NCBI GenBank assembly: GCA_903862955.1
Contig: CAIPAH010000017.1
Coordinates: 1 to 32,244, forward strand
Direction: 5' to 3'
From: an uncultured Opitutia bacterium
GTDB taxonomy: Bacteria; Verrucomicrobiota; Verrucomicrobiia; Opitutales; Opitutaceae
DNA: 32,244 nucleotides
How positions within the stretch are numbered: the stretch's first letter is position 1; the number at the start of each line of letters is the position of its first letter. A program made the translations under genes and the position numbers. Under the pieces are notes generated by a model. The model made no database searches. It had not been told where the DNA came from and saw nothing but the letters and a program-made list of their open reading frames with translations. This document shows positions 27,073 to 32,244 of this stretch, one piece after another.

Positions 27073-27672
27073 ATGAATCCTCGACTTCGTTTTCTGGGTT
27101 TCTTCCTCCTGATTTTCGCCGGCTGTATGGCGCCGGGCGTGCCGGTTGTGCCGAACGATGCCAGCAAGTGGACGATCGAAGTGACTTCGTCCGACCCCAA
27201 GCCAACGGGGCCAATTCGCATTTTTGATGAGCAGAACCGACTCATGTTGGACGGTTCGCTGGTGGCCGGACAGATGGACGGAACATGGACGGGATGGAGT
27301 TCCCAGAAGGATCGCCTGGTGATTTGGACGTATCGCGCCGGGGTGCGCAACGGGCCGATCCAGATGTGGTATGGACGTTTTGCCATTCCGGAGGCGGCTG
27401 GGAGGTTGAAACTTGAGGGTGCATTCCTCGACGGCAAATACGACGGCGCGGTCACCCGCAATCACCCGTCGGGCGCCCGACGAAGCGTCCGCATTTACAA
27501 GAACGGAACGATTGAGAGTGCCCGGTGTTGGGCGCCGGACGGGACGGAGCAAACGCCCGCCTTCACCGCCGATGTCGCAGCGGAAGAGCACAAGGCGGAC
27601 ATGCTCTATTTGGAACAGTTGGAAGGGATCGTGACGCGTTCCCTCGCCCAAGCCCATCGGCGAAATCCGTAA
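27073..27672 (+). CDS. Lipoprotein with MORN-like repeats
   Basis: Protein of 199 residues with a lipoprotein signal (LRFLGFFLLIFAGC), the Cys at about 18 being the lipidation site. The body has repeated turn-strand units of the MORN/YwqK kind: LMLDGSLVAGQMDGTWTGWS, then GVRNGPIQMWYG, then LEGAFLDGKYDGAVTRNHPS and GARRSVRIYKNGTI. These units often form elongated beta surfaces. The C-terminal 40 residues are helical. It is anchored in a membrane facing the periplasm; function unknown. It converges on the BatD/BatE-type gene with a 7-base gap. Confidence 0.82.
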   Translation: MNPRLRFLGFFLLIFAGCMAPGVPVVPNDASKWTIEVTSSDPKPTGPIRIFDEQNRLMLDGSLVAGQMDGTWTGWSSQKDRLVIWTYRAGVRNGPIQMWYGRFAIPEAAGRLKLEGAFLDGKYDGAVTRNHPSGARRSVRIYKNGTIESARCWAPDGTEQTPAFTADVAAEEHKADMLYLEQLEGIVTRSLAQAHRRNP

Positions 27673-27679
27673 CTGTTTC

Positions 27680-28942
27680 CTACTTCCACAGCGCGACCAC
27701 GTCCTCGCTGCGGACCCACCCGGTCTGGCCGTTTTCGAAGGTGAGGCGGATCCATTTTTCCTTGAGGAAGGCCCGGTCGGCGATCGCGACGCTGCCGGGG
27801 GCGAGCGTCGTGGTTTTCTGCGACGTGTCGGCGTCGGTGGGAATCGAATGCAGGACGCTGCCGTGCCAGACGATGACGGCGCGGGCGTCGGCGGTTTCGC
27901 CATAGGCGTAGAAGCCGGCGCCAGCCGCAGTGGCGAGGAGGAGGCCCGCGGCGAACAGGATGAACGCGCACCAGCGTCGCAGCCCTGACGCGGAGCGGTA
28001 GGCGCTGAGGAGACCCAGGCCGAACGCGAACGCGAGGATGAGGGCGGCGATCAAGAGCGCGATTTGCCATTCGCCGGGCGAGGCCAGGCGAGCGAGCGAC
28101 TGGAGCGGGCCGGGATGGCCGAATGCGGCGAGCGGTGCGGGCAGGTAGCCGGACTTTTCGGCGGCGAGGTTGAACTGCCAGCGGATGGGCTCGCTGGCGG
28201 GAGACTGCACCAGGGCGGCGGTGGCGTGGGCCATGGCGAGGTCCCAGTGATCCTGCTGGGCGAGGGCGAGCGAGAGGTTGTAGCGGGCGCTGGCGTCGGA
28301 CGGATTTTGGGCGACGGCGGCGCGCCAGACGCGTTCCGCGGCGGGGAAATCCGCGCGGCGGTAGGCGGCGGCGCCATCCTCGGCGCGGAGCGAGGGCAGG
28401 AGGATGGCCACGAGTCCGAGCAGCGTCAGGAACGGGAGCAGGTTCCGCGGATAAAACGCGGTGAAGGCCGAGAAACCGGGCACGCGCTTGGCGGCGAGGG
28501 CGGCCTCGGCGCGGGCGACCCAGTCGGACGGCAGCCCGGGATCGGCGCGATAGAGGGCGCGATCGGACTCGGTCCAAAGCGTCGCCCACTCGGAATCGGT
28601 CATCGCGGCGGGCGGCGGGGCCGCGTGGACAACGTCCCAGAGCACGGCGGAGTCGTGCTGCCAGGCGAGGAGCAGCGCGCGCTGCTGCGCGAGAGTTTCA
28701 GCAGGCAGTTTGGCGGGGGCGGCGGGTATTTCGCTGAGGGATTTGAGCGTCGCGGCGAGGCGGTCGCGGGCGTTGCGGCGGGTGCGGACGGGATCGGTCA
28801 GGCGGGCGCGCTGGATGGCCAGCCAGCCCCAGAAGAGCAACAAGGCGGCGACGGGCACGGCGAGTAGAACGGCCAGTTCGGCGGCCGCGGCGGTAATGAG
28901 CTTCTCAAAATAGGCGCGATCGTCAGGGCGGATGATGAAGAG
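27680..28942 (-). CDS. BatD/BatE-type membrane protein with TPR and SH3-like domains, 5' end missing
   Basis: Minus-strand gene cut off at the contig junction. The open frame continues past the first possible start (GTG 28858) back to about 28,942, reading LLFIIRPDDRAYFEKLI and then a membrane segment ELAVLLAVPVAALLLFWGWL. That region resembles the C-terminal part of BatD. It is followed by a charged cytoplasmic segment, a second membrane helix (LLPFLTLLGLVAILLP), TPR-like helices (AAYRRADFPAAERVWRAAVA, NPSDASARYNLSLALAQQD), two more membrane helices and a C-terminal SH3-like domain (KWIRLTFENGQTGWVRSEDV). TPR plus SH3 is the BatE arrangement, so this looks like a BatD-BatE fusion from an aerotolerance (bat) operon. 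The upstream bat genes are lost at the junction. Confidence 0.75.
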   Translation of the reverse strand, partial: LFIIRPDDRAYFEKLITAAAAELAVLLAVPVAALLLFWGWLAIQRARLTDPVRTRRNARDRLAATLKSLSEIPAAPAKLPAETLAQQRALLLAWQHDSAVLWDVVHAAPPPAAMTDSEWATLWTESDRALYRADPGLPSDWVARAEAALAAKRVPGFSAFTAFYPRNLLPFLTLLGLVAILLPSLRAEDGAAAYRRADFPAAERVWRAAVAQNPSDASARYNLSLALAQQDHWDLAMAHATAALVQSPASEPIRWQFNLAAEKSGYLPAPLAAFGHPGPLQSLARLASPGEWQIALLIAALILAFAFGLGLLSAYRSASGLRRWCAFILFAAGLLLATAAGAGFYAYGETADARAVIVWHGSVLHSIPTDADTSQKTTTLAPGSVAIADRAFLKEKWIRLTFENGQTGWVRSEDVVALWK

Positions 28943-28970
28943 GAGGCAGCCTTTGGCCGAAGCAAGCTAT
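28925..28970. other. Junction between bacterial and eukaryotic DNA (probable assembly chimera)
   Basis: Left of here the minus-strand BatD/BatE-type frame is intact. Right of here the plus-strand frame reads an exon, KLFLWHYVEELLKR, that ends at a donor splice site. Both genes are cut in the middle. The exact point cannot be fixed: the stretch from about 28,930 to 28,951 (GATGATGAAGAGGAGGCAGC) can be read in either gene. Beyond it introns, AT-rich non-coding DNA and lower GC begin. No transposon end, integrase or tRNA lies at the join. Confidence 0.85.
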
Positions 28971-30099
28971 TTCTGTGGCACTACGTTGAAGAGCTGCTGA
29001 AACGCATCACACAACCGAATGTCATGAACGGACTGATCGCTGCGCTCTCCATCATTTACAACATTTATCAGGTTAGCTCGTGCATTGTTGCGTTTGTGTT
29101 TCACGACGCTCGAACGCTTTCGTTTTCAGCAAGATGCCGCCAAGCGAGTGAGTGTATCTCGTTTTGGGCGAGCTGCAGAGATGTTTGGGCCCGTGGTCGA
29201 GAATGTACGCAAAGATGTGCTGGAAAGGCAGCGTGGCGGGGTCGGGTATCAGGTGGCTCTGAGGCGTTTGTCATGAATCATTCCGCAAATCGCTTCAATT
29301 TCATTTGTGCATGCAGGTGCTGCTGAGCTTGCCACGGCACAGTGTCCTTGGCAGCCCATGTTCCGCTTGTCGCTGGCTGACATGTGCTTCGGTCGGTTTT
29401 GCAATGTGAAGGGCAGCGTGATGGACCCATTCGTTGTAGTGAGCGAAGATTTCACCTCGGCCATTCTGGAGTACGCCTGTGCTACTGGGGCCAATTCGCA
29501 CGTGTACGCACAGTGCACGTCCAAGATGTACATCGACCCTCGCGTATGTCCTCGCGTATGTTCCGCAATGCATGGTCATGATGACGGCAGGTCATCGATC
29601 GCATGGTGGACAGCTGCGTCGCTGCGCAGAAATATATTTTTGTGCGAAACTAATTCTGATGATTTTAAGCTTTTTGTCAATTCATGATCAGGGTGCGATA
29701 CTGTGCCAGTACCAGCGCGCGCTTGACCACCGCCGTGCATTCGAGTACATCTGCAAGGCGGTGGAGCAGACTGGTGCTGTCAAGCAGGTTTATGGGTCAT
29801 TGTTCTCGTAGTTGCGCTTCAATTTTGCCAGGAGGAGCTTGAGCTGTTTTGGGACACGACCTGCCTTGAGCTGCTGATGGAGCTGCACGTCAAGGTCGAC
29901 TTATTCACATTTGACAGCCCGTGGCTTATATAACACTTCCTTGCAGCGGGGAGACACTGTGAAGACGATGACGGTGACGCGGCTGCTGGGCCGGCAGCAG
30001 TTCAGCGAGAGCAGCGACCCCTCCGTCCGACGCAATGCCGTGCAGCTCGAGCGCCAGCGGGCGTTCCTGGCCCTCTACCGCGCCCTCAGCACCACGTGA
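28949..30099 (+). CDS. 3' part of a multi-exon eukaryotic gene, unidentified helical protein
   Basis: Six exons can be read, all joined in phase 0: 28949-29071, 29130-29252, about 29356-29543 (acceptors at about 29317-29356 are ambiguous), 29692-29787, 29832-29894 and 29947-30099 with TGA. The introns begin GTTAGC, GTGGCT, GTATGT, GTTTAT and GTCGAC and end in CAG where fixed; fixed lengths are 44-148 bp. The peptide reads KLFLWHYVEELLKRITQPNV, then MNGLIAALSIIYNIYQ, QDAAKRVSVSRFGRAAEMFG, LADMCFGRFCNVKGSVMDPF, QYQRALDHRRAFEYICKAVE and EELELFWDTTCLELLMELHV. It is helix-rich and could be part of a TPR-like or armadillo-like large protein. I do not recognise the family. Its 5' end is lost at the junction. 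It converges on the eIF4E-like gene with 59 bases between the stop codons. Confidence 0.75.
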
Positions 30100-30158
30100 T
30101 CGATTGGCCATGTATTTTCGTCGAATGGACATATACAGGGGCACAAGACGTGTTTGGG

Positions 30159-31124
30159 CTATTGGATGTCGATGGATGGGATGTGATGATCGCCGAGAGC
30201 GCGCACGAGTGCCTCCTTGGCGATGCGCGGCACGTTATTGTATGATGAAGTGGCGTCTTTCGCGTCAGAGTGCCAGTGGAATCCGATCTGCACATGGAAA
30301 GTTGAAGGCACACTCGCACAGGCACGTACGTACGTACATCTATGAGCGGCAGAGTGTCGTGCAGCTTGAGCGCTTCAATGAATCGCTTGCCAATGCCGAT
30401 GTTGACTGCTTCATCGATTGTGTTGGTCCACACGGCTATGCGCTCAAACTTGCTCCGTCGGGACACCTGTGATCCGTTTGGTCGCGCTTCAAGTGTTGAT
30501 ATGATGCCGAACCACGGCGCCGCAAACGTCAGCTGACATGTCCATCAGCTCGCCGACCAGCGCCATGAGGCAGCGCATCCACGAGATGTCTGTCTTGGTC
30601 ATGGCGGGCTTGAGCTGCAGTATCCAGCGGCCGCCGCCCTCGTTGGCCTTGTCCTCCCAGGTCGGCGCCACACCATGCTTGAACACGTGGTAGTTTGAGC
30701 CGAGTTCCATCTGCAGCGAGGATATGAGCCATTGCGGTTGGCAGTGTGATGCCACGGGCCTGTGACGGCAGCAGCAGGCGGTTGAAGACGGCCCAGAACA
30801 TCTCAAGGCTGGTGATGTGGGCCACAAACTGCATGGCCGACTGATAGTCTCGCTCGCGCGTGGCGGCGGTCTTGCTGGCAAAGTCGTACCACCACACCCA
30901 CTTGTTGTGCAGCACTGTAACGCCGTCCGGGTTGAGCGGCAGCGCTGAAGGAGGAAAGTGAATAGATGCAAATGCGGCTTCTTCGATCAATTCAAAATTA
31001 ATAATTAATTCATAATTAAAAAAAGGAGCGAATGAAATAAAAACTAAAATGAATAGATTTCACCGAAACACTGAACACTGCCAATCGTACATGGCGCGGC
31101 CGGCAGCGGTGTTTTCATGGACAT
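30159..31124 (-). CDS. eIF4E/4EHP-like mRNA cap-binding protein, five exons
   Basis: Exons on the minus strand are 31124-31064, 30944-30760, 30710-30513, 30466-30338 and 30287-30159 (TAG), giving 233 residues. Introns of 119, 49, 46 and 50 bp follow GT-AG except the second, which starts GC (GC-AG). The protein has HNKWVWWYDFASKT, LEMFWAVFNRL, HGVAPTWEDKANEGGGRWIL, SADVCGAVV and FERIAVWTNTIDEAV. The cap-sandwich Trp equivalent to W102 is W100, followed by E101; that of W166 is W161. The W56 position, in the register of 4EHP (15 residues after the third Trp of KWVWW), is Y54, as in class II eIF4E proteins. It binds m7G-capped mRNA in the cytoplasm and may repress translation if truly 4EHP-like. 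The start is uncertain: the frame is open upstream to 31385 with a YGDRYGGGGYDRGQQQ stretch that could be an N-terminal disordered tail. Confidence 0.9.
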
Positions 31125-31558
31125 TTGCGTGTTTGACGAGATGCGGCGGCGTGTCTCGCTGTGCGGTGTCTGTTGCTGTCCTCGGTCGTATCCGCCCCCT
31201 CCATACCGATCGCCGTAGTTGAGGGAATGCTGCGGTGTCCTGGGTGGTGTTGCCCGCTCCCGTGCGCGCTGGTCGACTGCGCGGATGATGACAACGTGGC
31301 GTGGCATGTGCGGGACACTCACATCCAGGTGGCGCGGCATGATGTGACGGTGATGTCTGGCCAAACATAATGCGGGGCGACGCAAGCACCCCCGGACGGC
31401 GCTCGGCAGTCACGTCACGTGGCTGCTCAGAAAATCACTTGAGTACCAGCATTGCGTGTTTTGCGCAGTGACCACGTACCAACGGGCGTTGCATCGCAGT
31501 TTAGGGGAGATATGGCGCGGGGTTGTGAAACTCGCATTTTTTCGTTGACAACAACACG
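31125..31558. other. Gap between divergent eukaryotic genes
   Basis: 434 bases without a firm gene. The minus-strand frame of eIF4E exon 1 stays open through 31385 and may encode a Gly/Gln-rich N-terminal extension (YGDRYGGGGYDRGQQQ). From about 31,386 to 31,558 I see only non-coding sequence, including a CACGTCACGTGG palindromic stretch near 31,415 that could be a bZIP/bHLH-type site. It must hold the promoters of both flanking genes. Confidence 0.5.
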
Positions 31559-32136
31559 ATGTCGAAGGCGAGCAAGCCGATTCCGGGATACACGGGCCAT
31601 GTTGGAAAGACGCGCGCTGCAGACCCGTACGACAGCTACAAGGAGGACATGGATGTAAGTGCGGTTAAGGAAATAATCAATCTCAATACGTAATGATTAT
31701 TTTATTTAATTTTTACTATGCATTGTGTTTTAACTTGAGTGCAAATTACTCGTTTCTGGTTTTGTGCAACGCATCTCGCATGTCTCCCTGCGCAGGCCAT
31801 CGGCGTGTCGTTGCGGGGCGGCATCTTCGGCTCGTCAATGGGCGAGTTTTCCACGTCGTCATTGGGCAAGGATGATCTCGCGTTCGCCATCTCACCATGG
31901 CGATCAAAGGGAGCATATGATAATCGATAAACACAGGAATACACAGCACATGGCTGCTACGTCCGCGGTGTACCGGCCCGACACCACATTTCACTCCAAA
32001 ACAAACGACGAGAAAGCCTTTGTGGAGGCTGAGCTGGCGCGCCGGTGTGTACAGCCTCGGCGTTGTCGCCGCGTACTCAATGATTGATCGCAGGACGCTT
32101 GATCAGAAGCGAAAAGAGAATCTTGCCAAGAAGTAG
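31559..32136 (+). CDS. Four-exon eukaryotic gene, small protein with GYTGHV motif (axonemal-like)
   Basis: Exon 1 (31559-31654) encodes MSKASKPIPGYTGHVGKTRA then ADPYDSYKEDMD. Intron 1 (31655-31795) is GTAAGT...CGCAG, 141 bp. Exon 2 starts at 31796 (AIGVSLRGGIFGSSMGEF). A short second intron, best fitted as 31882-31936, removes an in-frame TAA; its donor GTTCGC is weak and alternatives exist. Exon 3 (about 31937-32044) encodes YRPDTTFHSKTNDEKAFVEA, ELARR. Intron 3 (32045-32093) is GTGTGT...CGCAG. Exon 4 (32094-32136) ends LDQKRKENLAKK and TAG. The total is about 110 residues. The PGYTGHV motif resembles short motifs in ciliary microtubule inner proteins, so a flagellar role is a low-confidence guess. 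Confidence 0.7.
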
Positions 32137-32178
32137 TTTGTTTGCTTGTTGATTTGTTCATGCTCATATACAATTGCA

Positions 32179-32244
32179 TTACGTGATGATGGGGCTGTCG
32201 ACCATCAGACTCTCGAGCAGCATAGGCCCCAGCACCACCAGCAC
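32179..32244 (-). CDS. C-terminal end of another eukaryotic gene (partial)
   Basis: At the right edge the minus strand reads VLVVLGPMLLESLMVDSPII, Thr and a TAA stop at 32181-32179. The frame is open to the edge and has coding-like codon use, in contrast to the AT-rich 32137-32178. It converges on the four-exon gene with 42 bases between stops, the same tight spacing as the other pair. Too short to identify. Confidence 0.45.
   Translation of the reverse strand: MLVVLGPMLLESLMVDSPIIT

Follow-up and report, generated by a model that had tools for sequence, protein, structure and literature searches.

The gene arrangement MoxR-DUF58-VWA-VWA-BatD is named the Bat aerotolerance operon, and the same gene order and domains are present in an Opitutaceae-like genome (G000) when two of its contigs, C26 and C17, are read together. 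The window analyzed here is the entire contig C17 (32,244 bases), which belongs to an assembly of 3,611,780 bases in 31 contigs, rated as 100% complete with 0.12% contamination.

As for wrong joins, the GUNC paper describes how fragments of different origin can be misassembled into a chimeric contig, an error that it considers relatively rare compared to mis-binning (PMC8201837). C17 resembles the chimeric contigs described there in that fragments from more than one source are assembled together in a metagenome-assembled genome; it differs from them in that the foreign part is eukaryotic and contains introns, and in that the correct continuation, C26, can be named. Judged from the letters of the assembly, C17 would be a chimera produced in the library, during sequencing or during assembly, in which 28.9 kb of bacterial chromosome are joined to 3.36 kb of protist nuclear DNA with no gene transfer; we assign this reading a probability of about 97%.

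The batD gene across C17 and C26

The features on the bacterial side of the window and at the joint are as follows.

27073..27672, plus strand: bacterial open reading frame of 199 amino acids, the last gene before the batD remnant; single Pfam match, below the cut-off
27680..28885, minus strand: 3' part of a BatD-type gene, with a membrane segment, TPR and an SH3-like end; the 5' part lies on C26
28843..28885, no strand assigned: overlap with the end of C26, 43 bases identical to C26:24587-24629, minus strand
28885..28886, no strand assigned: putative chimeric junction, given as the last base common with the bacterial continuation and the first differing base

Regarding the batD remnant, its open frame in C17 alone has 428 codons, and its match to TPR_16 (E 1.4e-06) is just under the Pfam cut-off. 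A base-by-base comparison revealed that the terminal 43 bases of C26 (24587-24629), once reverse-complemented, equal window positions 28843-28885, and that the two sequences diverge from 28886; this exact 43-mer is present at two places only in the genome, namely these two. C26 extends the intact version of batD just 43 bases past the joint, a point that counts against the chimeric reading. When G000 was searched with 28700-29200, the matches were C17 itself and the extreme end of C26. Joined at the overlap, C26 and C17 give a single stop-free frame of 861 codons, and the resulting protein takes its BatD domain (PF13584, E 1.2e-20) from C26 and its TPR part from C17.

The gene order on C26 is MoxR, DUF58, VWA, VWA and then batD, with Pfam matches to a MoxR-type AAA ATPase (E 4.3e-66), DUF58 (5.1e-33) and two VWA proteins (2.9e-20 and 2.7e-16). 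With batD joined, these genes are an ordinary Bat operon; the joined locus has nothing unusual, and the C-terminal TPR part occurs in relatives as well.

For the product of 27680-28858, named genome contigs yielded 27 relatives, all of them labeled Verrucomicrobia, Opitutaceae, Opitutae, Opitutus or Opitutia, and the host is therefore presumably an Opitutaceae-like verrucomicrobium. The C17 part of batD found a match in 40 of the 57 genomes searched. All 11 other genomes of the same genus were among those matched; in 10 of them the gene is one frame of 872-1232 codons, while in the eleventh (G010) the match begins at base 5 of a contig, so that the gene is cut by the contig edge. Once aligned with 14 relatives, the joined protein had 12 rows crossing the joint, with an identity of 57-75% over the C26 part and 56-69% over the C17 part. 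The two rows not counted as crossing were the contig-edge case and one row translated in the wrong frame; the row of C17 in its unjoined form, likewise translated in a wrong frame, was also left out.

The preliminary description of this DNA had proposed a chimera rather than a genuine transfer, and this proposal is well supported: C26, an alternative and correct continuation within the same assembly, crosses the junction with an uninterrupted batD; the join was not found among the few best candidates scored per relative, and the gene is whole in 10 of the 11 same-genus genomes, the eleventh being the case of the contig edge. We read the join as an almost certain artefact, and not as gene transfer, because batD is whole once C26 is used as the neighbor.

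Two observations were made at the other end of the window, far from batD. Around positions 18-46, the contig start carries a palindromic repeat, rich in G+C, of which 25-mers also occur at the ends of C14, C15 and C19, and this repeat may be the reason why these contigs end there. Positions 59-883 encode, by eye, a superoxide-dismutase-like protein with a twin-arginine-type signal; a second copy of this gene is likely in the genome, because a very similar motif is encoded where the ends of C24 and C29 overlap.

The foreign part and the position of the switch

Composition and gene type switch abruptly in the window at a single base. Neither an N nor any other mark interrupts the contig at 28885/28886, which counts against the chimeric reading. 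The GC content is 0.655 on the left of the junction and 0.543 on its right, with segments of equal size on the left ranging from 0.635 to 0.679. The tetranucleotide comparison of both sides, suggested in the preliminary description as a check, agrees with it: the right part lies at a distance of 0.248 from the left, compared to 0.061-0.108 for left segments against the rest of the left part. Likewise, the longest stop-free frame on the right has 176 codons, while in the left segments it has at least 282, with a median of 489; both baselines were taken from 103 left segments of 3359 bases each. The difference between left and right is far beyond chance. Finally, scanning the window for Rfam families and for tRNAs gave no match.

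The features of the foreign part are the following.

28886..30099, plus strand: 3' end of the gene for INTS8 (Integrator subunit 8), truncated within an exon; it has five GT-AG introns, and the stop is at 30097-30099
29072-29129, 29233-29316 or 29253-29316, 29544-29691, 29788-29831 and 29895-29946, plus strand: introns of INTS8, GT-AG, from the exon model
28931..28950, plus strand: purine-rich stretch, within the foreign exon, in a single copy
30338..30944, minus strand: eIF4E gene, in three exons (30944-30760, 30710-30513, 30466-30338)
31559..31900, plus strand: start of a possible FAM166-like ciliary protein gene; weak, ATG placed

As for INTS8, the product matches Pfam TPR_INTS8 with E 3.1e-13 and 49.7 bits, above the cut-off of 27, and the solved Integrator chain 7cun_H with E 9e-09; its introns are 44-148 bases long. 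The Pfam match begins at codon 35, and the first 34 codons (28886 to about 28987) were assigned by their open frame and by exclusion. The eIF4E product matches Pfam IF4E with E 5.5e-44 and 150.1 bits, above the cut-off of 28.7, and the best of the solved eIF4E chains with E 3.1e-32; an additional upstream exon is likely. Its two introns are one GC-AG and one GT-AG, with the apparent GC-AG splice pair located in the intron 30759-30711. As a candidate for the FAM166/CIMIP2 family, the FAM166-like start matches FAM166A with E 0.025, no stretch being significant alone, and SPATA48 with E 0.11, below the cut-off; it hints at a flagellated protist as the source.

The switch from bacterial to eukaryotic DNA noted in the preliminary description is present in the sequence, with batD on the minus strand lacking its 5' end and, next to it, a eukaryotic gene with introns that begins in mid-exon. 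Its position had to be revised: the breakpoint had been placed at 28925-28970, and the true switch at 28885/28886 is 40-85 bases further left, C26 being identical through 28885. The interval first reported is entirely on the foreign side, because C26 and C17 part at 28886. As regards the three further intact or partial genes mentioned there, eIF4E is firm and the FAM166-like start weak, whereas no assignment was obtained for the last fragment or for the final 200 bases. The purine-rich stretch, said to be readable on both sides of the join, did not hold up as a shared element; this 20-mer belongs to the foreign DNA, and G000 contains it a single time when up to 2 mismatches are allowed. As a cause of the misjoin it was rejected, since it lies on the foreign side with no second copy in the genome.

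Other copies of the foreign DNA were sought in several collections. No second copy of 28960-32244 was found in G000, and the foreign end of C17 had no 25-mer in common with any other contig end. Compared with 56 relatives, the foreign part had no match at E 0.001 in 55, and a 37-base match with 89% identity in the remaining one, with the best few candidates per genome scored; against a set of 386 genomes of the phylum, some additional and some overlapping with the relatives, there were no matches at E 1e-6. For most of these searches on the relatives and the phylum, scoring was limited to the best 2-5 candidates in each genome. The same join in an independent genome, which the preliminary description held would speak against a chimera, was sought among the relatives and the phylum and was not found among the candidates scored. 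Finally, the eIF4E piece had no relative in the genome_contigs and viral_contigs collections, a 30-base pattern of the INTS8 exon had no match in viral_contigs, and the DNA at 28700-32244 had none in phage records; the source eukaryote was thus found in none of these collections, another point that counts against the chimeric reading.

Alternatives to a chimeric contig

A real eukaryotic insertion into batD, in the bacterium or in part of its population, would make the 43 bases at the end of C26 the target-site duplication at the far side of the insert. The letters allow it, with one 43-base copy in C17 beside the foreign DNA and the other in C26, and with the far end of the insert outside the window; bacterial DNA was sought on both sides of the foreign genes, and the foreign DNA continues to the contig end. 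However, the insert would begin in mid-exon of a spliced gene, keep its introns and come with no recognized mobile element; it would break a gene kept in all 11 same-genus genomes, and C26 would need to end precisely where the duplication does. The foreign DNA is also in no relative, apart from the 37-base match and among the best few candidates per genome. We consider such an insertion very improbable, and we hold the same view of its population form, in which part of a verrucomicrobial population would have a recent protist insertion in batD, introns included and with 43 target bases duplicated, while other cells keep the gene intact. The reverse transfer, of a piece of bacterial chromosome into a protist nuclear genome, with C17 as a protist contig, would likewise set intact bacterial DNA sharply against spliced genes. 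Nevertheless, the C17 genes would in that case have to be present a second time, in the bacterium itself, and the search with 28700-29200, for that stretch only, returned C17 and the end of C26 alone; C26, moreover, fits C17 as its direct neighbor. This direction of transfer appears the least probable of all.

As for the stretch 28886-28987, it might derive from a third source, and there would then be two joints instead of one. The INTS8 match in Pfam starts only at codon 35 of the exon, and a minus-strand frame is also open over this stretch, as a third source would allow; on the other hand, the plus strand has, starting from 28868, an open frame in phase with the INTS8 exon, and no other place in the genome accounts for the stretch, given that the other matches of 28880-28975 in G000 spanned just 14-22 bases, none with an E value better than 0.3. 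A third source is thus unlikely, although less remote than either transfer.

Contig ends and consequences for the genome

For the chimeric reading, the following course of events is the most likely. Positions 1-28885 are almost certainly true chromosome of the Opitutaceae-like verrucomicrobium, continuing into C26 inside one batD gene, and 28886-32244 nuclear DNA of an unrelated eukaryote, with the end of INTS8, eIF4E and part of a third gene. The kind of eukaryote is deduced from these genes, and it was probably a flagellated protist of the same sample. C17 and C26 both seem to fail at the same spot, as with thin coverage or chimeric reads; the wrong join may have come from a chimeric read, or from the assembler bridging a poorly covered spot where C26 also stops, and C17 would then have been extended with protist DNA.

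The contig ends of the assembly were surveyed as a whole, with 400 bases for each of the 62 ends. Exact dovetails were found in 12 pairs, including C20 with itself (all N) and one of 15 bases only; the remaining 10 pairs share 28-141 bases, two of them exactly 141. C20 (1974 bases) consists of N throughout, with a GC of 0. Exactly 141 bases at the start of C5 (6027 bases) recur at the end of C18 and again at that of C7, as would be seen where an assembly graph branches at k 141; 141 is the last k of MEGAHIT. The 43 bases shared by C17 and C26 were not taken as a k-mer size, because some of the contig-end overlaps are repeats.

Three low-GC ends, those of C16, C22 and C28, were followed over a longer stretch, and eukaryotic DNA was rejected on the contents read for these ends and for the start of C10; the contig interiors covered were those of C26 and of the small contigs. 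By eye, the end of C16 is presumably 16S rRNA and that of C22 presumably 5S/23S rRNA; the end of C28 is an AT-richer stretch with bacterial-type frames, and the low-GC start of C10 has, again by eye, integrase-like and other bacterial-type frames.

In conclusion, the chimeric reading removes a false case of eukaryotic INTS8 and eIF4E in a bacterial genome, together with that of a broken batD, and it identifies the end of C26 as the true neighbor of C17. The low contamination figure does not reveal the chimera in C17, and a genome rated as 100% complete with 0.12% contamination can still contain such a joint. Regarding the organism itself, the join would not be a real feature, and the locus is biologically ordinary.
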